From NCBI GenBank assembly GCA_938085105.1, contig CALKGK010000008.1, forward strand, positions 1-55,221: a DNA stretch of 55,221 bases, in the 5' to 3' direction. The stretch is from an uncultured Flavobacteriales bacterium (GTDB taxonomy: Bacteria; Bacteroidota; Bacteroidia; Flavobacteriales_D; Sanyastnellaceae). Made by a program: the position numbers and the translations under genes. Shown here piece after piece: positions 44,308 to 55,221 of this stretch. The notes beneath the pieces are model-generated. The model ran no database searches, had not been told where the DNA came from, and worked only from the letters and a program-made list of their open reading frames with translations. How positions within the stretch are numbered: position 1 is the first letter of the stretch; each line of letters starts with the position of its first letter.

Positions 44308-47300
44308 TTATTGCTTGACAATCATTTTTGAAACCTGTTGGTCTCCTTGTGAGATGGAGATGAAGTAGTTTCCGGCGCTCCAATCACTTGCTTCCATTGA
44401 GAAGTTCATGTGCTCAGTGTTTGGGGTGAATTGTTCACGTTGGATCATTTGTCCCATCATGTTCATCACTCTCATTTCCGCTACTTGATCCACTTCCAAG
44501 TTTCCAACGCTGATTTGAAGTTGCGAAACGAATGGGTTTGGTGCAGCGTTCAAATCGATTTCGAGGCCGAAGAGGTCTTCCAAATCCACATCACTGATTG
44601 GGTTTCCGTAAACACAGTTTCCATCATCCACGTCCGCCATTGGGTTGAAGTTGATTGCTTCAGGATCCATACAACCAGCAATTGCGCAATCGCTATTGAT
44701 TCCAATCACGTCCATTCCACTTTGTCCATAGAGCAAAGTTCCTTCGGCATACAGCCCATTATCGTCATAGATCATGTAATATGCTCCATTCCATCCATCA
44801 CCCCATTCATCATTCATTGTGAGGGTATAGCAACCATCCATCAAACAAACGTTCTGGAGGTAGGTGTTGTAGCTGTCGTAGTTTCCTCCAACAGCAACCG
44901 TGTTGCTATCGGCATCCATCAAGTTCCAAGAGATTTCTTGACCCCATTGCTGGGTAGCGATGAAGATGCTCACTGTATTTGCTCCGATAGAATCACAAGC
45001 AGAAGTGATGTCGTATTGGCAAGAACCATCATCAATGGTTGCCATTGGGTTGTAATTCAGTGCACTAACGTCAGTACAACCATAAGTGATGTCTTCATAG
45101 ATGCATGATCCATCATCCAACTGTGCTTGAGGATTGTAGTTCAGTGCTGTTGGGTCGGTACACCCTTCCGTCATCTCTTCATAAACACAAGAACCGTCTT
45201 CCGCACTTGCCAACGGGTCGTAGTTGGATGCAGTTGGGTCGGTACATCCGTAAGAGCTTCCGCAGGATAGAATGACAACAATTTCTTCGATGTTGTTTGA
45301 GCTTTCACAAGAGACTGATCCATCAGTGACGATTTCCATTGTGAGTGGACCACCAGAGCTGAGAACTTGCACTCCTGTCATGTTTCCATCGGAGCTTAGT
45401 AGAAGTGGACTACCGTTATCTGAACCATCATAAAAGTTAACGTAGTCAAAGTTGTTTTCCAGCATACCAGCAAGGAAAGTAAGACTAACAACGCCACCTT
45501 CTTCATTTGGGTAGAAGGTTTCACTGATGGCTTGATTGTTTCCGTAACAGTAGCTTAGGAGGGTCCCATCGTCACAACCATAATTGCACGAATTGTTGTC
45601 CACCGTCGCGTCAGGATTGTAGTTCAGTGCTTCTTCATCCGTACATCCTGGGAGAACAACTTCTCCACAAGGTTCTCCTGTGAGCGAATTGAAGTTAACC
45701 ACTTGAGTAGAGGCTTCAGGGTCCAAAGATCCAGTGAAAGTGGTGTTACCAACTTCTACCCAGAAATAACCGTTGTACCATCCGTTACCACCGCCAACAT
45801 TGAACATGTGCGCACTGATGCATTCATCATCAGGCAGACAAATATCGAAATACATGATCGCGCCATTTCCTAAAGCTGGAGAAACAAAAATGCTTGTGTC
45901 TGAATCAGAGTAGAGATTCAGTGCAACGTTGTTTCCGTTCGAGAAGGTGCAGATGTAGAGTGTTGCTGGAATTCCATCACATTCTTCATAAACACAAGAA
46001 CCATCATCTTCGGTAGCTAGCTCATTATAATTGAGGGCAAGGCTATCTGTACATCCACTAATGTCATATAGACAATCTTCAGTGTTGGTTCCACCAGGAA
46101 CATAATTGTTTGCTTCAGGATCTCCACAACCGTTGAGGTTTCCGCAAAGCACAGCCATCGTAATGGGTTCGTAGTTTGAGTTTTGACAATCAATCACGCC
46201 ATCTACAACAAAAGCAACGGTTAAACTTGAGCCTGTGCTCTCGTATGCCAAACCGCTGATGTCACCATCAATGATGTCAATCAAAGGCGCATTGGTGTCT
46301 GGTCCATCATGGATGTGCAGCCAATCCCAACCTTCTTCGATGTAGCCATTCAAGAATGCGATACTCGCTCCCTCGCCATCAACAGTTTCATTGATGGTCC
46401 ACTCATAATTGAGGTTATTTTCATAGCAGTAAGTCACCACTTGTGGGTTGTCAGTGCAAGCGTACACGCAGCTCCCATCATCCTCAGCGGCAGTTTCGTC
46501 ATAATTAAATGCTTCGGGATCCATGCAACCAACCATGGTCATTGTATCTCCGCAAGAGCCGTCCAAAGAGAAGATTTGCTCTTCGTAAATGTAATCGTCG
46601 TTCAAGGTTTCATTGATGATTTCAACGCCGTCAACATTGATCCAGAAGTAGCCTCCATACCAACCGCCTTCTTGCGCGTTGTTGGCCATTTCTACGTAAA
46701 TACACCCTTCATTGGGAATGCATACATCAATGGTGCTAATGTATCCGCTTGGATGAGAGTCTCCAGAGTAAATAATGGTAGAATCAGAAGCATAAATGTT
46801 CAAGCTCACGTTTTGTCCATTCGAGAAGGTACAAACGTAAAGTTGAGCAATGGTACCATCGCACTCTTCAGTTTCATATTCACAAGAACCGTCGTTGAAT
46901 GTAGCTTCTGGGTTGTAGTTGATTGCGTTTGGATCCATACAGCCTCCAATTTGAATGTAGAAACAACTGCCGTCATCAAAAGTGGCTTCAGGGTTGTAAT
47001 TCTCAGCATTTGGGTCGGTGCAGCCTACCACTACAGCTGGAGCACAATCAGCATTGTTCACACCAAAGGCAAGCGTTCCAGCAGAAGTGCTTCCTTCCAA
47101 AGTGGCGATCAATAGAACTTCATCATTATTCACAATGGTAGCAACCGCACCATTCCATCCGTCTCCAAACGAGTCAAACATGTTGAAGTTGTAACAACCA
47201 TCGGCAAGACATAATTCTTGCGAATAACCGGTGTTACTTTCATATCCATTTCCCGTGGCTAGGATATCACCTTCTTGGTTGGTGATGTTCCAGGAAATTT

Positions 47301-47931
47301 CATTCCCCCAAGACTCTGTCCCTAATGCGAACAAAAGAGCATTTTCGTCACAAGGTTCTACTTCAATCGGATATTCACAACTACCATCATCTTCAGTGGC
47401 ATCAGGATTGAAGTTGAGCGCTTCATCATCCATACATCCTAAAATGGTAGGGTAGAAGCATGATCCGTCGTCATCTGTTGCATTTGGATTGAAGTTTTGA
47501 GCAAGTGGATCAGTACAACCGCTGATGGGTGCGGGAGCGCAGTCTTCGGAATTCACTCCGAAAGTGTAGGCTTGTCCGTCACCAGTGGGAACATCAGCAA
47601 CGACAAAAACGCCGTCCAGATCATTCAAAACAGTCACCACAGCACCATTCCATCCATCACCGAAGTAATCCACCCCATTTAGCGTGTAGCACCCGTCTTC
47701 CAAACAAAGGTTGAAAGTATAAGCGGTGTAATCATCAAAGGCAGCACCAACAAATAGCGTGTCTCCTTGATCGCTTACGATGTCAAAATAGATTTCTGAA
47801 GCCCACTGTTCCGTAGCTACAACGAGGAGAACCTCGGTGCCGTCACATTCAATTTCTTGAGAAAAAGCGCGGCTGTTAAAAGTGAATGAGCAAAGAAGTA
47901 ATAGTGCCCATAGAAGTATTGATTTTTTCAT
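44308..47931 (-). CDS. Large secreted Cys-rich repeat protein with T9SS type A tail
   Basis: 1207 residues. After the signal peptide (KKSILLWALLLLCSFTFNSRAFSQ) come twelve copies of a Cys/Asp repeat (GCTDPxAxNYNPxATxDDGSC and variants). They are mixed with four domains of the type ECDG..., GCYTLNGVDYFGDGWNGAV, two domains with FSNGQNVSLNIY and WYNGYFWVEV, and two CUB-like domains (YCYGNNQAISETFYPNEEG, FDYVNFYDGSDNGSPLL). The end (AAPNPFVSQLQISVG to VSKMIVKQ) is a Por-type sorting domain, so the protein is exported by the type IX system. The Asp-rich repeats probably bind calcium. It may act in adhesion or matrix formation; no catalytic site is seen. Confidence 0.92.
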   Translation of the reverse strand: MKKSILLWALLLLCSFTFNSRAFSQEIECDGTEVLLVVATEQWASEIYFDIVSDQGDTLFVGAAFDDYTAYTFNLCLEDGCYTLNGVDYFGDGWNGAVVTVLNDLDGVFVVADVPTGDGQAYTFGVNSEDCAPAPISGCTDPLAQNFNPNATDDDGSCFYPTILGCMDDEALNFNPDATEDDGSCEYPIEVEPCDENALLFALGTESWGNEISWNITNQEGDILATGNGYESNTGYSQELCLADGCYNFNMFDSFGDGWNGAVATIVNNDEVLLIATLEGSTSAGTLAFGVNNADCAPAVVVGCTDPNAENYNPEATFDDGSCFYIQIGGCMDPNAINYNPEATFNDGSCEYETEECDGTIAQLYVCTFSNGQNVSLNIYASDSTIIYSGDSHPSGYISTIDVCIPNEGCIYVEMANNAQEGGWYGGYFWINVDGVEIINETLNDDYIYEEQIFSLDGSCGDTMTMVGCMDPEAFNYDETAAEDDGSCVYACTDNPQVVTYCYENNLNYEWTINETVDGEGASIAFLNGYIEEGWDWLHIHDGPDTNAPLIDIIDGDISGLAYESTGSSLTVAFVVDGVIDCQNSNYEPITMAVLCGNLNGCGDPEANNYVPGGTNTEDCLYDISGCTDSLALNYNELATEDDGSCVYEECDGIPATLYICTFSNGNNVALNLYSDSDTSIFVSPALGNGAIMYFDICLPDDECISAHMFNVGGGNGWYNGYFWVEVGNTTFTGSLDPEASTQVVNFNSLTGEPCGEVVLPGCTDEEALNYNPDATVDNNSCNYGCDDGTLLSYCYGNNQAISETFYPNEEGGVVSLTFLAGMLENNFDYVNFYDGSDNGSPLLLSSDGNMTGVQVLSSGGPLTMEIVTDGSVSCESSNNIEEIVVILSCGSSYGCTDPTASNYDPLASAEDGSCVYEEMTEGCTDPTALNYNPQAQLDDGSCIYEDITYGCTDVSALNYNPMATIDDGSCQYDITSACDSIGANTVSIFIATQQWGQEISWNLMDADSNTVAVGGNYDSYNTYLQNVCLMDGCYTLTMNDEWGDGWNGAYYMIYDDNGLYAEGTLLYGQSGMDVIGINSDCAIAGCMDPEAINFNPMADVDDGNCVYGNPISDVDLEDLFGLEIDLNAAPNPFVSQLQISVGNLEVDQVAEMRVMNMMGQMIQREQFTPNTEHMNFSMEASDWSAGNYFISISQGDQQVSKMIVKQ

Positions 47932-49408: not shown

Positions 49409-49801
49409 ATGGAGTATGTGAGAAGTGTATTGTTGATTGATGACAATCCAAGTTGCAATTTTATCATGAGCGAGTTCATCAAATTGGCCGATCCCAACAT
49501 TGAGGTGTTTGAGGCGGACAGTGTCGAGGACGCCATGGAAATTTTGGCAAACCTTCCCGTTTGTCCCGAAGTCATTTACGTGGACGTAAACATGCCTGTT
49601 TTGAATGGCTTCGATTTTATCGAACGCTATGAGCAAGGGTATTTGATCAACAATCCGCACTCAAAAATTTTCATGCTGAGTTCTTCTTTAAGAGAAGAAG
49701 ACAAATTAAGGGCGATGGGGCATTCTTGCGTGAAGGATTTTGTATCGAAAAACGACATCGACAGCTTTTTGCAGAGCACTTTATTGAAGGGTGTGGCTTA
49801 G
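49409..49801 (+). CDS. Single-domain response regulator
   Basis: 130 residues from the ATG at 49409; a TTG start at 49364 adds 15 residues with no conserved character. The receiver is complete: LLIDDNPSCNF (acidic pocket), VIYVDVNMPVLNGFDF (phospho-acceptor Asp), MLSSSLREED (Ser/Thr) and DFVSKNDID (Lys). No output domain follows, as in CheY-like or Spo0F-like proteins, so it passes phosphate or docks to a partner. It lies 118 bp before the second ECF sigma gene; whether it belongs to that system or to the orphan hybrid kinases at 5.7-10 kb is not shown by the sequence. Confidence 0.92.
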   Translation: MEYVRSVLLIDDNPSCNFIMSEFIKLADPNIEVFEADSVEDAMEILANLPVCPEVIYVDVNMPVLNGFDFIERYEQGYLINNPHSKIFMLSSSLREEDKLRAMGHSCVKDFVSKNDIDSFLQSTLLKGVA

Positions 49802-49842: not shown

Positions 49843-49875
49843 CAAAAAAAATCACTTAATTCGTCAGAATAACGG

Positions 49876-49903
49876 GCAACCCTTCAAAAGAAGGATCGTC
49901 TAT
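49876..49903 (+). promoter_or_regulatory. ECF-type promoter of the second sigma gene
   Basis: GCAACC (49876-49881) and GTCTAT (49898-49903) separated by 16 bp, ending 16 bp before the ATG. It matches the element in front of the sigma gene at 35821 (GCAACC, 17 bp, GTCTTAT), which suggests that each factor recognises its own or the other's promoter. Confidence 0.6.
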
Positions 49904-49919: not shown

Positions 49920-50474
49920 ATGCCAGAGTCAGATTTGAGAAATCTAATCAATGGATGCGTTCGTGGAAAAAGGAAATCTCAAGAGGAACTCTTCAAACGC
50001 TATTACAGCAAGATGATGATCGTTTCGATGAGATATACTAAGAACGCGGACGAGGCAGCGGATATTTTGCAAGATGGGTTTTTGAAAGTGTTTGCCAAAT
50101 TGGAGGCATACAATTACGAAGGCTCCTTTGAAGGTTGGATCAGAAGAATCATTGCAAACACGGCAATCGATCAACTGAGAAAACGAAAAAATGACTTTAT
50201 ACTGCTTCAGGAAGAACAATCTTTAGAAGACTTTGCCGATAGGGCAGAGGAGGAAGAGGAAGAACCAGAAGTGGAATTTAAACCAAACCAAGTGCTTGCA
50301 GCAATGCATGAGCTTTCACCAGCGTACAGGACCATCTTTAACCTTTATGTGTTTGAGAACCTAACGCACAAAGAAATTGCAGACCAACTGAATATTAGTG
50401 TTGGGACTTCGAAATCGAATTTGGCCAAAGCTAAAAGGAACTTGGCGAAGATGTTAAGAAACGGAACATACTGA
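49920..50474 (+). CDS. ECF-type RNA polymerase sigma factor
   Basis: 184 residues. Region 2 (ELFKRYYSKMMIVSMRYT, EAADILQDGFLKVFAKL, SFEGWIRRIIANTAIDQLRKR) and region 4 (LSPAYRTIFNLYVFENLTHKEIADQLNIS in two parts, then VGTSKSNLAKAKRNL) are complete. Between them is an unusual acidic linker (residues 100-122, a run of Glu). It shares SFEGWIRRI and overall spacing with the factor at 35821, so the two are paralogues. The anti-sigma-like gene begins 4 bp after its stop codon. Confidence 0.95.
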   Translation: MPESDLRNLINGCVRGKRKSQEELFKRYYSKMMIVSMRYTKNADEAADILQDGFLKVFAKLEAYNYEGSFEGWIRRIIANTAIDQLRKRKNDFILLQEEQSLEDFADRAEEEEEEPEVEFKPNQVLAAMHELSPAYRTIFNLYVFENLTHKEIADQLNISVGTSKSNLAKAKRNLAKMLRNGTY

Positions 50475-50478
50475 CTTA

Positions 50479-51771
50479 ATGGCGAAGCATTTAAGTACAT
50501 TCGAAAATAAGGTGAAGGAAAGTGTTAACCAACTTTCTGCCGAATATGACGCACATGCTTGGAAAAAACTTGAAAAGCAACTTCCGAGCAGCGCAAGCAG
50601 TAACCTAGCAAATCTTGTTGCCGCGGCGGCTTTCGTAGCTGTGATGTTAGGTGGTGCCTCCGTTTGGTATTATACCAGCGATGCCTCGGCAAGTTCAGGT
50701 GCCTTGTCTGGCGATTCACGCAAAGAAATCGATGCCAACTATTTCCAAGTGGTAGAAGCCAAAAAGGAATTGGTTGCCTTGCATGTTGCTCAATCTGACC
50801 TCGCTAAAGAAAGTGCTGAAGAGAACACTGATGTTTTACAATCAAAAGCCGATTCTGACCTCATAGCTCAATTGAACACGGAAGCCTCTTCAGCGTCTAA
50901 CTCCATCGAGAAAAATAATTCAGTCGATAATCAAGTTACACCTGAACTTGAAATTGTAGACCCTATCGAAGAAAAATTGCTTTCCCGAAAAGAAGATGGC
51001 TTGGCGTTTAAACCAAACGTACGATCAGCTTGTGAAGGTGCTGCGGTTGAATTCAACCTCTTCACCGAAGGAAATGATGGAAATTACCTTTGGAATTTTG
51101 GTGATGGTAACTTCTCAAATGAAGTGAATCCTGTGCATACTTACATGAAGCAAGGAGTTTATGATATTACGCTTTCTGTAACTGGAAAAGAAGATGGTCA
51201 GATTCGTACAAAGACCATTGAAAACCTTATTGTTATCAACCCCACACCGGAAGCTTCTTTCGACTGGGAATTTTTAGAAAATCCGAACGATAAGCCAACC
51301 ATTAAAGTGCTTAACCAGAGTGAGTTTGCCGATCAATGTGAATGGTTGGTTGATGATTCTATTGCTAGCGAAGAAATTAACCCGAGCATCGCTTTCAAGA
51401 ACAAAGGAGAGCACTCAGTAAGATTGACCGTTTCGAATAAATTTGGTTGTTCAGACACGAAGTACAGCTATGTCAATGTCGATAAAGACTACAAACTGCT
51501 CGCTCGTGAACAAATCTCTCCGAATGGTGATGGAAAGTACGATAGCTTTATGCCGGAAGCATTGAAAGACGGCAGCAGATCATTCAAATTGTCAGTCTAT
51601 GACGGACAAGAGGTTATTTACGAAACCAGAGACGCGGCTAAACCATGGGACGGTACTGTTCCAGGTAATCTTACGGCGCAAGTGGGTGATAAATTCCCTT
51701 GGATTGTCATCCTCTACAACAAAAAAGGAGAAGAAGAATATTACAGTGGAACCATTACGATAATACCTTAA
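50479..51771 (+). CDS. Anti-sigma-like membrane protein with PKD and CHU_C domains
   Basis: 430 residues. The N-terminal cytoplasmic part of about 38 residues (STFENKVKESVNQLSAEYDAHAWKKLEKQL in parts) is followed by one transmembrane helix (about 40-60: LVAAAAFVAVMLGGASVWYY). The outside part has a low-complexity stalk (residues 65-175), a PKD domain (VEFNLFTEGNDGNYLWNFGDG, HTYMKQGVYDITLSV), a second PKD-like domain and, at residues 345-430, a domain with the type-B sorting signature ISPNGDGKYDSF, FKLSVYDGQEVIYET, PWDGT and the end YYSGTITIIP. There is no cleavable signal peptide. Position and topology suggest an anti-sigma factor; the CHU_C-like end is unusual for that role. Confidence 0.8.
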   Translation: MAKHLSTFENKVKESVNQLSAEYDAHAWKKLEKQLPSSASSNLANLVAAAAFVAVMLGGASVWYYTSDASASSGALSGDSRKEIDANYFQVVEAKKELVALHVAQSDLAKESAEENTDVLQSKADSDLIAQLNTEASSASNSIEKNNSVDNQVTPELEIVDPIEEKLLSRKEDGLAFKPNVRSACEGAAVEFNLFTEGNDGNYLWNFGDGNFSNEVNPVHTYMKQGVYDITLSVTGKEDGQIRTKTIENLIVINPTPEASFDWEFLENPNDKPTIKVLNQSEFADQCEWLVDDSIASEEINPSIAFKNKGEHSVRLTVSNKFGCSDTKYSYVNVDKDYKLLAREQISPNGDGKYDSFMPEALKDGSRSFKLSVYDGQEVIYETRDAAKPWDGTVPGNLTAQVGDKFPWIVILYNKKGEEEYYSGTITIIP

Positions 51772-51796
51772 CCAAAACTTCCTAATAACCACTGTG

Positions 51797-51828
51797 AAAG
51801 GCCTGAGATTTGTTCTTGGGCCTTTTTT
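51797..51828 (+). terminator. Intrinsic terminator after the anti-sigma-like gene
   Basis: AAAGGCC (51797-51803) pairs with GGCCTTT (51819-51825), with one G-U extension, followed by a T run to 51828. It closes the sigma/anti-sigma transcript. The promoter of the next gene overlaps its loop and tail. Confidence 0.82.
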
Positions 51829-51876: not shown

Positions 51877-54800
51877 ATGAATAAGGTGAAGTTGTTTTCA
51901 AACGTCCCACCATTAGCGATTACTCTGCTGTGCTCTTTGCTAGGTTTCTTGGCGAACGCCACAACCATCACCAATCCTACTCTTGATTGTGCATCTTGTT
52001 CAGGAGAAGCCATTTTTACAAGTGATTTGCTCGGAGATGTACTTTATGAATGGTACGACAGCAATGGGGCTTTGATTTCCGCTGAAAACAATGACCTAGG
52101 AAGCAGCACCATCAACAACCTTTGTGTTGGAAGCTATCAAGTTCAGGCAACCAACGGAGAAACAACGGCTTTCGAGTGGTTCAGCATTACTACCATCAAC
52201 TCAGTTCTTCCCGAAGTTATTCATCACAACAACTGCAATAGTGGTCCGGCCATTAACCTCAGCGGACTCTTTGGAGGAACCTTGCCTCCCGGCGGACAAT
52301 GGTTTTCACCCCTTGGAGTGTCCATTCCTTCAGGGGCTGTTTCTCCTGTAACGGGCCAAAGCGGATTTTATACTTATGAGTTCGATGCTGACGGCTGCAC
52401 TCAAATCACTGGGGTCGGTCTCAATATCGTTCAGAACGCCAACCCAGGATTATCGGAGACCTATCTCATTTGTGAAACCTATGAGCCTTTCGAGTTAAAT
52501 GATCAATTGGATGGCGCGGATTTCGGTGGTGAATGGTTCGACCCAAATCAAAACCCCTTTCCCGGCTTGTACTCCCCAACGATTGATGAACCGGGTACCT
52601 ATGTCTATAGAATCGGTACTGTGGAATTCTGTCCGGCAGTCTTCAGCACACTCACCATTCTCGAGAATACTTTGCCGAACATTGGTACAGACAACTCCCT
52701 CTTTGTTTGTCCGGGAGCGGTGCAGGTTGACTTGTTCGATTATTTAGGCGGAACTCCGGATGCTGGAGGACAGTGGTACAATACAAACAATCAGGCTTTT
52801 AACGGTCTTTTCGATCCCTCAGCAATGCCGGAAGGGGAGTATCGGTATCGAATTCTTGGAGCTGTTCCTTGTCCTAATCAAGAATCCTCAGTCTTTGTAG
52901 AGTTTACCAATGGGATCAGTGCCGGCGTCGGAGAGGATTATAGCGCTTGTCTCAATGCTCCTTTGGATTTAGATCTTGGAACGCTCTTGAACGATAATCC
53001 AACACTTGGTGGGCAGTGGTTGGCACCGGACGGTTCGCCTGTACCCTCTGTTATTTCGGCTTCTACCGATGTGAATGGTAGCTACACTTATGTAGTTTCC
53101 GCCTTGGGTTGCGACGACGAAAGCACCAATTCTGAAGTGTTTTTTGAGATGCCCACAAGTGCCGGTCCTGATCAGAACCTGAGCTTCTGTGAAAGTCAAA
53201 ATACGCTGAATGAATCCGAGGTGATGGACTTGACGCTCATGGATGCTGGTGGAACTTGGACAACCAACGAAGTATTGGTCAATTTCCCCTTGGATTTAAG
53301 CAGCTTTTCAGCACCCTTCGAATTGAATTATCAATTAACTCCAGTGGTTTGTCCGCAAGATGAGTCTTCCATCTTCATCACTCTGGACGAAGAACTTCCC
53401 ACCTTTCCAGATCTTGATTTTCAGTTGTGCTCCAGCGATGAGAATATTCTTCTTACCGATCTTGCTCCAGCAGGCTATAACGACCTTCTTTTCTCAAGTC
53501 CAAATCCTGTATTTGACGATGGCATTTTTGAACCCAGTGCTTTGGAAAGTGGTGTTTTGACAATCGATGTGCTTTCCAATTCAGCTTGTCCAAACGTGAG
53601 TTTTCAAAGCACCTACTCGGTTGCAGAAGAACTTCTCAGTAGTGAGGAAATCAGTAGTTTGAATTGTGCTAATGGGGAGAACATCCTTCTGAACGACTTC
53701 TTCCCGGATCAAGAGGATTGGACCATCAGTACTTGGACTTTGAATGGGCTTCCTGTTGATGAAAATGTGATTGCTGAAAGCGCTTCGAACGGACAATACA
53801 TTTATTCTTATGACCATGGAAATGCCTGTGGAGTTCAGTCGCTCGAGTTGAATTTAAGCATCGAATTGTCTCCTTTTGCCGGTCCAGATCAAAGCTATTC
53901 CTACTGCATCAATGATGATCCTGTGAATTTGTCCGAAGTTCTGACCTTTGTAGCTCCTTCCGTCATTTGGAATGAAGACTTTACCGCGGAAACCACCACC
54001 TTCGACCCAGGTTTAGGAAGTCAGAACATTGCTTTAGTGGTGAATGAAGTTGGTCCGTGCATCAGTGATACCGCTTGGGTGAGTTTTGATGTTGATCTTG
54101 GCGTTGTGCTCGATGCTGGTGATGACCAAGTTCTTTGCGATGGTGAATCTCTTGAGCTTCAAGCTTCGGAACATGATGGCTATGAGTATTTGTGGACCCC
54201 CAACCAACATCTTGACGTAGAGAATTCCAGTTCCCCCAATTTTAGCATTGATACTGGAAGTGAATTCACGCAAAATTTCATCTATATTCTAAGCATTACG
54301 AACGGTATTTGCAGTTTTGAAGACGAGTTAGAAATTGTAGTTAACCCATTGCCACAACTGTCTTTTATTGGAGATTTGGAGCTGTGCGAAGGAGAGCTCC
54401 TGGATATTGGTCTATCGGGTGCACCAACGATTTCTTGGGAGATCAGCAGTGGTGAGCAAGGAGTTGGAAACGCTATTCTTGAGACACCCCTTACCAGTGG
54501 AGAAATTAATCTGGATTTGGAAAGCGAAGATGGCTGTATGAATGCATTTGTGTTGCCGTACATCGTTCATGAAAATCCGGATGCGAACTTTGACGCATCT
54601 CCCTTAACAGGGTGCATTCCTCATGAAGTGTTTGTCCAAAACCTCAGCGAAAACGAAGGTGATGTGGACTACTTTTGGCAAATTGGCGATGACCTACAGA
54701 ACACGCAAAACCCATTACCGTTCATTCTTGAAGAACCGGGCTTTTTTGATGTTACTCTGCTGGCAGTGAATGAATGGGGGTGTCAATCAAGTCAGAGCAT

Positions 54801-55221
54801 TGAAGACTACATTCAAGCGTACCCTTTACCCAATGCTAGTTTTGAACTATTGAGTGAATCCATCTCGTCTGACAATCCTATCCTTTCGGTGATGAATGAA
54901 AGTACAGGTGCGACTTCTTGGGTTTGGTCCTTGAATGGGAATACAAGTTTCTCCAATGCTTGGGAACCCGAAGTTCAACTCGAATATCCCGAAAGCAGCG
55001 AGGAATTTTCACTGTGCTTGTACCTTGAAAATGACTTTGGATGTTCAGACAGTACCTGCAGAGATCTGCTCTTATTTACAACCTTGAACGTCTTCGTTCC
55101 GAACGCTTTTAGTCCTGATTTTGACGGAGTGAATGATGGCTTTAAGCCTGTCGTATCAGGATATGCGCCAGACACTTATCGCTTTCTAATCTTCAACCGA
55201 TGGGGAGAACTCATCTTTGAG
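51877..55221 (+). CDS. Giant secreted protein with repeated Ig-like/PKD domains and a CHU_C end (partial)
   Basis: The frame from the ATG at 51877 is open to the right edge (1115 codons with no stop), so the end is missing by about 40 residues. The N-terminus (NKVKLFSNVPPLAITLLCSLLGFLANA) is a signal peptide. The body contains repeated domains with a GGxW element (GGTLPPGGQWFSP, GGEWFDPN, GGTPDAGGQWYN, GGQWLAPDG, DAGGTWTTNE) and regular single cysteines. PKD-like domains follow near 54570-54830 (ANFDASPLTGCIPHEV, YFWQIGDD). The window ends inside a type-B sorting domain (VFVPNAFSPDFDGVNDGF, FLIFNRWGELIFE). It should be exported by the type IX system as a surface adhesin or structural protein. 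Confidence 0.92.
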   Translation, partial: MNKVKLFSNVPPLAITLLCSLLGFLANATTITNPTLDCASCSGEAIFTSDLLGDVLYEWYDSNGALISAENNDLGSSTINNLCVGSYQVQATNGETTAFEWFSITTINSVLPEVIHHNNCNSGPAINLSGLFGGTLPPGGQWFSPLGVSIPSGAVSPVTGQSGFYTYEFDADGCTQITGVGLNIVQNANPGLSETYLICETYEPFELNDQLDGADFGGEWFDPNQNPFPGLYSPTIDEPGTYVYRIGTVEFCPAVFSTLTILENTLPNIGTDNSLFVCPGAVQVDLFDYLGGTPDAGGQWYNTNNQAFNGLFDPSAMPEGEYRYRILGAVPCPNQESSVFVEFTNGISAGVGEDYSACLNAPLDLDLGTLLNDNPTLGGQWLAPDGSPVPSVISASTDVNGSYTYVVSALGCDDESTNSEVFFEMPTSAGPDQNLSFCESQNTLNESEVMDLTLMDAGGTWTTNEVLVNFPLDLSSFSAPFELNYQLTPVVCPQDESSIFITLDEELPTFPDLDFQLCSSDENILLTDLAPAGYNDLLFSSPNPVFDDGIFEPSALESGVLTIDVLSNSACPNVSFQSTYSVAEELLSSEEISSLNCANGENILLNDFFPDQEDWTISTWTLNGLPVDENVIAESASNGQYIYSYDHGNACGVQSLELNLSIELSPFAGPDQSYSYCINDDPVNLSEVLTFVAPSVIWNEDFTAETTTFDPGLGSQNIALVVNEVGPCISDTAWVSFDVDLGVVLDAGDDQVLCDGESLELQASEHDGYEYLWTPNQHLDVENSSSPNFSIDTGSEFTQNFIYILSITNGICSFEDELEIVVNPLPQLSFIGDLELCEGELLDIGLSGAPTISWEISSGEQGVGNAILETPLTSGEINLDLESEDGCMNAFVLPYIVHENPDANFDASPLTGCIPHEVFVQNLSENEGDVDYFWQIGDDLQNTQNPLPFILEEPGFFDVTLLAVNEWGCQSSQSIEDYIQAYPLPNASFELLSESISSDNPILSVMNESTGATSWVWSLNGNTSFSNAWEPEVQLEYPESSEEFSLCLYLENDFGCSDSTCRDLLLFTTLNVFVPNAFSPDFDGVNDGFKPVVSGYAPDTYRFLIFNRWGELIFE

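Follow-up and report, generated by a model that had tools for sequence, protein, structure and literature searches.

A putative anti-sigma factor with an outer tail related to type IX secretion cargo, paired with an ECF sigma factor in one bacterial order

A gene pair encoding an ECF sigma factor and a putative membrane-anchored anti-sigma factor (ASF) is widespread in one bacterial order, and the outer end of the ASF is related to the tails of type B cargo of the type IX secretion system (T9SS). The pair was found in a window of 55,221 nucleotides, the whole stretch of DNA analysed here, from an uncultured Flavobacteriales bacterium. The ASF probably holds the sigma factor inactive at the membrane, and the pair may serve to detect stress in protein export or in the cell envelope. 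Our general reading, in which we have about as much confidence as doubt, is of an autoregulated ECF sigma/anti-sigma switch whose cargo-tail-like outer end docks at an export site and which drives an envelope or secretion stress response. Beyond its own operon, the recurrent output of the sigma factor seems, as far as promoter sequences indicate, to comprise a DUF5684 membrane protein and a small RNA of ~90 nt.

The locus and the layout of the anchored protein

The sigma factor (184 aa; 49920..50474, + strand, as are the other features unless stated) was recognised by Pfam (Sigma70_r2, 1.1e-14; Sigma70_r4_2, 4.2e-16) and by NCBIfam (sigma70-ECF, 1.2e-31). The start codon of the ASF gene (430 aa; 50479..51771), assigned from the open reading frame, Pfam and orthologues, lies 4 bp past the sigma stop codon. 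Conservation and an AF2 model delimit a cytoplasmic two-helix module at residues 1-40 (50479..50598), the presumed anti-sigma domain, which is followed by a single membrane helix at residues 44-69 (50608..50685), a presumably disordered tether of ~100 residues (70-173; 50686..50997), two PKD domains (174-336; 50998..51486) and a CHU_C-like type B CTD that appears domesticated (343-430; 51505..51768). The AF2 model, built with 25 orthologues (mean pLDDT 71.8), placed helices at residues 7-18, 25-34 and 44-69 and three better-predicted beta domains after about residue 172, while residues 65-172 mostly had pLDDT <50, including a low-confidence helix at 86-111. Solved PKD structures matched the model on residues 171-255 (2y72, Z 10.8) and 255-336 (4l9d, Z 11.9), and PDB and fold searches with the full-length ASF recovered GhpA of Aureispira and PKD domains. 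Together with the Pfam match of PKD_4 in two stretches (E 2.3e-20), this confirmed the PKD domains proposed for the outer part in the original prediction, which had been made from the sequence of the window.

The same prediction had described an internal helix without a signal peptide, and hydropathy agreed with this description. The best hydrophobic 19-mer of the window ASF, its hydropathy maximum, is 44-62. Among 154 orthologues the hydrophobic core started between residue 40 and residue 99 (median 48), with a mean of 1.6 reached in 134/154, and a second hydrophobic segment was present in only 2/154. A signal-peptide core near the N-terminus, as in T9SS cargo, was absent by hydropathy, with the core at residue 40 or later in 154/154; a cleaved signal peptide was dropped as an interpretation, since by hydropathy so late a core is ill-suited to an ordinary one.

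The anti-sigma position and topology first noticed in the window, i.e., one helix and a start 4 bp after an ECF sigma gene, were confirmed in relatives. Of 95 loci examined closely, which encode 93 distinct proteins, 93 have a sigma gene adjoining the ASF gene; the exceptions are L121 and L031, the latter of which begins at a contig end. This adjacency, the conservation of the cytoplasmic module and its duplication in some relatives, and a hydrophobic core that in no orthologue starts before residue 40 all speak against a quite different reading, which we regard as very improbable, namely that the protein is not an anti-sigma factor but belongs to the surface or the periplasm, has an exceptionally long signal sequence and simply happens to be encoded behind a sigma gene. 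In favour of the latter, PKD and CTD domains are typical of cargo, and no Pfam anti-sigma family matched the ASF N-terminus. Within the module W28 is invariant in 25 aligned ASF proteins. In L082, L089 and L110 the two-helix module was seen by eye to occur twice in tandem.

Binding of the sigma factor by the ASF N-terminus is supported indirectly by a fusion model. In relatives whose sigma and ASF genes share one reading frame the stop codon was read as a residue, and an alignment of 12 of these pairs was modelled as a single chain. In the resulting AF2 model (274 residues, pTM 0.64, 12 alignment rows) the ASF helices mostly reached pLDDT 80-85 vs 61-67 in the window protein alone. The sigma part best matched SigW bound to RsiW (5wuq, Z 15.0, 158 aligned, rmsd 5.1), and several RNA-polymerase-bound ECF sigmas aligned at rmsd near 26; 7qh5, a sigma factor solved without an anti-sigma factor, was nearly as good a match (Z 12.9, rmsd 4.2). 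The model would fit an inhibited sigma factor.

Downstream of the ASF gene, a terminator-like hairpin (51796..51826; 13-pair stem and T tract) is weak evidence alone because shuffles average 1.8 such sites in the region. It is followed by a T9SS type B cargo-like adhesin gene (51877..55221) that is cut by the contig end; at least 1115 aa are encoded, with a CHU_C match of 30 bits from residue 1073, and relatives have complete type B tails. Membership of this gene in the sigma operon was rejected, given the hairpin between them and a gap with no promoter match. On the other side, a stand-alone response-regulator receiver domain (49409..49801; Response_reg, 2.6e-13) adjoins the sigma gene, is found in the same place in 8/13 loci of the home family (f1), and could be a further input. 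A 1207-aa protein rich in GCTDPEALNYNPDATxDDGSC-like repeats is encoded on the opposite strand (44308-47931, -), beyond an mnmA-like gene. The names mutL, gyrB, rsmG, alaS, SPFH/Band-7, mnmA, SprB-like and NtrC-/PhoP-like were assigned by eye, without family search.

The tail compared with type B cargo tails

The type B domain of the window ASF is recognisable, though it scores under both curated cut-offs. CHU_C (PF13585) matched residues 343-428 with E 2.4e-5 and 24.8 bits (Pfam cut-off 27), and TIGR04131 reached 20.4 bits (NCBIfam cut-off 35); the ASF was not among the matches of a genome-wide TIGR04131 search. At E <= 0.01, CHU_C was found in 15 and TIGR04131 in 12 of 25 ASF orthologues. 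The original assignment of a CHU_C domain to the C-terminus therefore stands as far as homology is concerned and falls short of the curated cut-offs.

For the comparison, 154 unique ASF tails were set against the tails of 77 type B cargo proteins encoded at these loci. A type B cargo HMM built here scored 146/154 ASF tails at >20 bits, and the domains are therefore homologous. The tails differ in the residues that they keep. The motif [RK]WG was present in 0/154 ASF tails vs 75/76 cargo tails picked by an ASF-derived HMM; it was also present in 76/77 cargo tails of the comparison set, although the 20 seeds of the cargo HMM had been chosen by RWG. The last residue is R or K in 73/77 cargo tails and in 61/154 ASF tails, the window ASF ending in P. 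The NGDG loop is lost in part among ASF tails, and N after the GDG loop drops from 100% in cargo to 44% in ASF. The W-x-G loop was kept in 90/93 ASF proteins, and the ASF tails have a signature of their own, FxPxAL, with P in 97% (cargo 30%), A in 63% and L in 86%. In an unrooted FastTree tree of the domain, 154/154 ASF tails fell apart from the 77 cargo tails with support of 0.976, a pattern that we read as a single domestication of a cargo tail.

Thus the outer domain did not bear out the idea of an intact T9SS signal; judged by these residues it looks domesticated. In F. johnsoniae, according to the accessible text of PMC12618676, each of five motifs in the SprB type B CTD is required for secretion, and RWG is assumed here to be part of one of them. 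The role of 'decoy' or 'sensor' first suggested for the tail would fit such a mimic.

The state of these residues also bears on a further explanation. In FlgM, export is coupled to sigma release. By the same logic a working T9SS might take up the ASF tail and pull the ASF out, so that sigma activity would report an active, not a jammed, machine. The homology of the tail to cargo tails and the flexible tether of the AF2 model agree with this explanation, but the internal helix anchors the ASF, RWG is absent from every ASF tail and a final R or K is found in the minority given above. Mutating any of the five SprB CTD motifs blocks secretion, as the accessible text of PMC12618676 has it. We consider uptake of the tail unlikely.

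Recurrence, promoter and output of the sigma factor

With residues 1-201 as query, a match was obtained in 28/114 genomes of the family, at one place each, and the matched frames were open frames of 413-484 aa, apart from one of 246 aa in G031. The profile built from 25 proteins found an ASF covering the N-terminus in 117/299 genomes of the order at E <= 1e-50, and partial matches in ORFs of 321-500 aa in a further 21 genomes; the profile match stops before the ASF end in G008, G021, G031 and G140. In a phylum-wide draw of 395 genomes 2 matched at E <= 1e-50, both within the same family. A plasmid search gave 7 records with PKD-type matches, none of which covered 80% of the ASF query. One ASF copy (G003:C4:117111-118058) has four in-frame stops and is possibly a decayed gene.

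Starting from the sigma factor, the best 80 relatives in named genomes were followed in 69 cases by a protein of 330-600 aa matching the ASF profile, and 66 of these 69 also match the tail profile. Among the other 11/80, 2 were contig-cut, 2 were without a gene in reach and 2 were followed by something else. In L174, L190 and L197 a related sigma gene precedes an anti-sigma-like protein of 226-244 aa with a similar N-terminus and no CTD or PKD, while L195 and L203 (MAGs labelled Chlorobiota) have a minimal form of 217-222 aa, with the N-terminal module, a helix and a CTD-like domain and no PKD. Many of the named genomes are labelled Flavobacteriales/Crocinitomicaceae, and they include Cryomorpha, Lishizhenia, Brumimicrobium and Fluviicola; many of the named loci are from MAGs, and the taxon labels are partly doubtful. 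Among cultured bacteria the pair is present in Cryomorpha ignava (L138) and Lishizhenia tianjinensis (L212). The sigma/anti-sigma-CHU_C pairs whose recurrence the original prediction had raised were thus found. The identical domain order behind the same sigma factor recurs across the order and is therefore not a matter of chance.

A two-box element precedes the sigma gene in 137/150 orthologous regions at a score of at least 9 of 11, compared with 4/150 for shuffles. Its spacing is 15 in 114 regions, 14 in 20 and 16 in 3, with a median of 19 nt to the start codon. The window contains 7 promoter matches, of which only the one at 49875..49900 (GGCAACC-N15-CGTC) has 0 mismatches; it lies 19 nt upstream of the start codon of the sigma gene. 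By its sequence, this layout before the sigma gene is that of an autoregulated ECF promoter, and use of the GGCAACC-N15-CGTC element by the ECF sigma factor is supported indirectly. Strict sites were read in 20 genomes, G000 and G014 with GGCAAC-N15/16-CGTC and 18 others with GGCAACC-N15-CGTC. The 18 genomes had 58 strict sites vs 37 in the reversed control, and the looser form in G000 and G014 gave 13 vs 18. With so high a background, sites count as evidence only where they recur in front of the same genes. CTCCGTC sites in G014, G044, G047 and G015 were dropped as lying inside response-regulator coding ends, and likewise one in G038.

Two kinds of target recur. The first is a membrane protein of 124-160 aa encoded behind the promoter in 14/20 genomes; all 14 proteins are homologous and match DUF5684, for which no naming paper was found in the literature searched (most subscription journals were outside the search). 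In G000 (C47:6940, L226) and 13 other genomes the loci read have the DUF5684 gene between an NtrC-like regulator gene and a presumed alaS.

The second is an ORF-less transcript of ~90 nt with a 5' hairpin, a conserved single-stranded core (TTGGTTTCAAAATTTTCCTTGCAGGTTT) and a terminator. It was found at G000:C70:22113-22206 (L228/L300) and in 105 further genomes, often after a PhoP-like response-regulator gene. In the predicted structure 9/17 pairs have a change on both sides, and the copy in the window genome folds at z -3.65. A covariance model without the promoter found the RNA in 106/239 genomes of the order; of these 106, the ASF list includes 89 and lacks 17. In 30/30 best RNA loci the promoter immediately precedes the RNA, with a score of 10-11 out of 11 where shuffles reached no more than 8; the genomes of 22 of these loci had contributed nothing to the covariance model. 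Another 20 matches, mostly weak, had a promoter score of at least 8.5 in 18/20 (shuffles at most 7). Family f9 has the variant [GC][CA]CAACC-N16-CGTC before the RNA; in L340 the promoter was not found in the 72 nt searched upstream, and L343 was discarded as a false match. A search of 8 loci against Rfam at E <= 1 found no described family near threshold; BSR0709 in L236 overlaps the RNA, but at 24.4 bits vs a gathering threshold of 382 and with only the 3' part of the model, and it was taken as chance. A second ORF-less transcript, with a common ATGATTTCCTAAACAAA and a terminator, was seen behind the promoter in L250 (G009) and L266 (G018).

Predicted pairing of the RNA with the starts of type B cargo genes, 29 in number, stayed at the level of shuffles (7.69 vs 7.80), and with 112 other genes it was 8.11 vs 7.89 shuffled. 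Complements of the RNA core with <=3 mismatches in 11 genomes were the 11 RNA loci themselves and 7 scattered weaker sites, with 2 in the reversed control. A duplex-energy ranking that often put the first cargo gene high was set aside, being blind to folding and base composition.

T9SS-type genes were recognised behind the strict promoter at two G122 sites and, by a type A tail that scored below threshold (19.4 bits, NCBIfam cut-off 23), in an ORF of G107, and at no other strict site. At one G122 site (L278) the promoter stands 199 nt ahead of a PorP/SprF-family gene (TIGR03519, 46.9 bits against a cut-off of 90.55), with the RNA and its terminator in between, and at the other (L348) it stands 185 nt ahead of an SprB-like ORF recognised by eye. 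In G018 a SpoIID-type protein is encoded behind the RNA (NCBIfam). Ten unclassified ORFs behind other promoter sites were run through NCBIfam; no family was assigned to the ORFs cut by the locus end in L233, L251 and L252.

The host genome itself has 38 TIGR04131 matches (34 over the cut-off), 12 PorP/SprF-like proteins and SprA. The gene next to the ASF gene encodes a giant type B cargo in 29/29 complete loci of the home family, often with one or two more behind it. Across all families 50/80 complete same-strand next genes have type B tails and 30/80 do not. Up to three giant (~1080-1310 aa) type B cargo genes stand in a row 3' of the ASF gene in the home-family loci L037-L049, and in 7/13 of these a protein of 136-159 aa is encoded before the third. 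SprA is present in 292/299 genomes of the order, and because of this co-occurrence or co-loss of the ASF and the T9SS is uninformative. What connects the pair with the T9SS is therefore the ancestry of the tail, the cargo genes beside the ASF gene in home-family loci, both G122 sites and the precedent of F. psychrophilum discussed below.

The same observations can be set against an alternative that we hold to be possible, though doubtful, in which the tail was taken over from cargo simply as a handy Ig-like fold and now responds to a ligand or to envelope stress in general, with no present link to the T9SS and with the same output. Such an origin agrees with the loss of RWG in 154/154, the partial loss of the NGDG loop and the final R/K, and the conservation of a new signature; also, the recurrent promoter targets are DUF5684 and the RNA, and 30/80 of the complete neighbours on the same strand encode something other than type B cargo. 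On the other hand, a type B cargo neighbour in every complete home-family locus and T9SS-type genes behind both G122 sites would not be expected of it, and the whole PKD-PKD-CTD tail is usually kept rather than one Ig domain. Moreover, in F. psychrophilum an ECF promoter class shared by an sRNA and a sigma/anti-sigma pair has GldN and PorU as further targets, according to the accessible text of PMC9723704.

A possible export-site sensor and its nearest relatives

In the reading of a switch that docks at an export site, the cytoplasmic two-helix module of the ASF would keep the sigma factor at the inner membrane, and the flexible tether would carry the PKD-PKD-CTD module through the periplasm towards the outer membrane; estimated from chain length, its ~100 residues could span the periplasm. 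The CTD-like tail would most likely dock where cargo tails do, at a PorP/SprF-like barrel or at the translocon. The simplest use of a disarmed tail would be to occupy the docking site of cargo without being exported and to report whether it is free. Failure of docking or its loss to competition, with a jammed or missing export site or with piled-up cargo, would then be the signal on which the ASF might release the sigma factor or be cut. The freed sigma factor would transcribe its own operon, the DUF5684 membrane protein and the ~90-nt RNA, an output whose layout would be that of an envelope or secretion stress response. The RNA targets, docking partner, signal and release step of this scheme are all inferred. 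A more specific version, to which we lean somewhat less than to the general one, is a secretion-stress response dedicated to the T9SS, in which the disarmed export tag gauges free docking sites and the sigma factor answers via the RNA and DUF5684, as a T9SS counterpart of the enterobacterial sigma-E/RseA.

The anti-sigma factor RsgI of the SigI/RsgI systems of cellulosome clostridia carries a module of the system that it serves. The ASF resembles SigI/RsgI and FlgM in that it likewise bears a module of the system or would couple export to a sigma factor, although the machines differ. The nearest described kind seems to be Dma (dual membrane-spanning anti-sigma) of Bacteroides thetaiotaomicron, the partner of ECF21 sigmas (PMC13088901). 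Compared by description, and as far as the accessible text of that source goes, the two share the occurrence in Bacteroidota, the adjacent sigma gene and the order of anti-sigma domain, helix, long disordered tether and an end aimed at the outer membrane; however, Dma has its own C-terminal outer-membrane beta-barrel, and the ASF has PKD-PKD-CTD beta domains instead. With the T9SS type B sorting domain (TIGR04131/CHU_C) the ASF shares a homologous tail after PKD modules and the W-x-G loop, and it differs in its scores below both cut-offs, the lack of RWG, the terminal P of the window ASF, the lack of an ordinary signal peptide and the anchor in the inner membrane.

Two systems known from Bacteroidota are related in function. 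In PorXY-SigP/PorA of P. gingivalis a CTD protein feeds a T9SS-linked ECF sigma factor; in the accessible text of PMC7712824, PorA carries a CTD, is exported and presumably acts via the PorXY two-component system, whereas in the ASF the CTD-like domain and the presumed anti-sigma factor form a single protein. The SM6 promoter class of Flavobacterium psychrophilum likewise has an ECF-type -10 CGT, and its targets include a sigma/anti-sigma pair and the putative regulatory RNA Rfp11; it differs in that GldN and PorU are also among the SM6 targets given in the accessible text of PMC9723704. No description of an anti-sigma factor with a cargo-like tail was found in the literature searched, most subscription journals being outside the search. 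Anti-sigma factors that reach towards the outer membrane are already known, and the present one stands apart by its unusual sensor and small-RNA output.

In the literature searched, only the PorXY-SigP work on P. gingivalis addresses how Bacteroidota sense the state of the type IX system, as judged from the accessible text of PMC7712824. If the T9SS link should fail, an order-wide envelope-stress sigma factor and a small RNA absent from Rfam would remain. The conserved switch bears a mimic of an export tag, and its promoter points to a small and testable output of one RNA, one membrane protein and its own operon.
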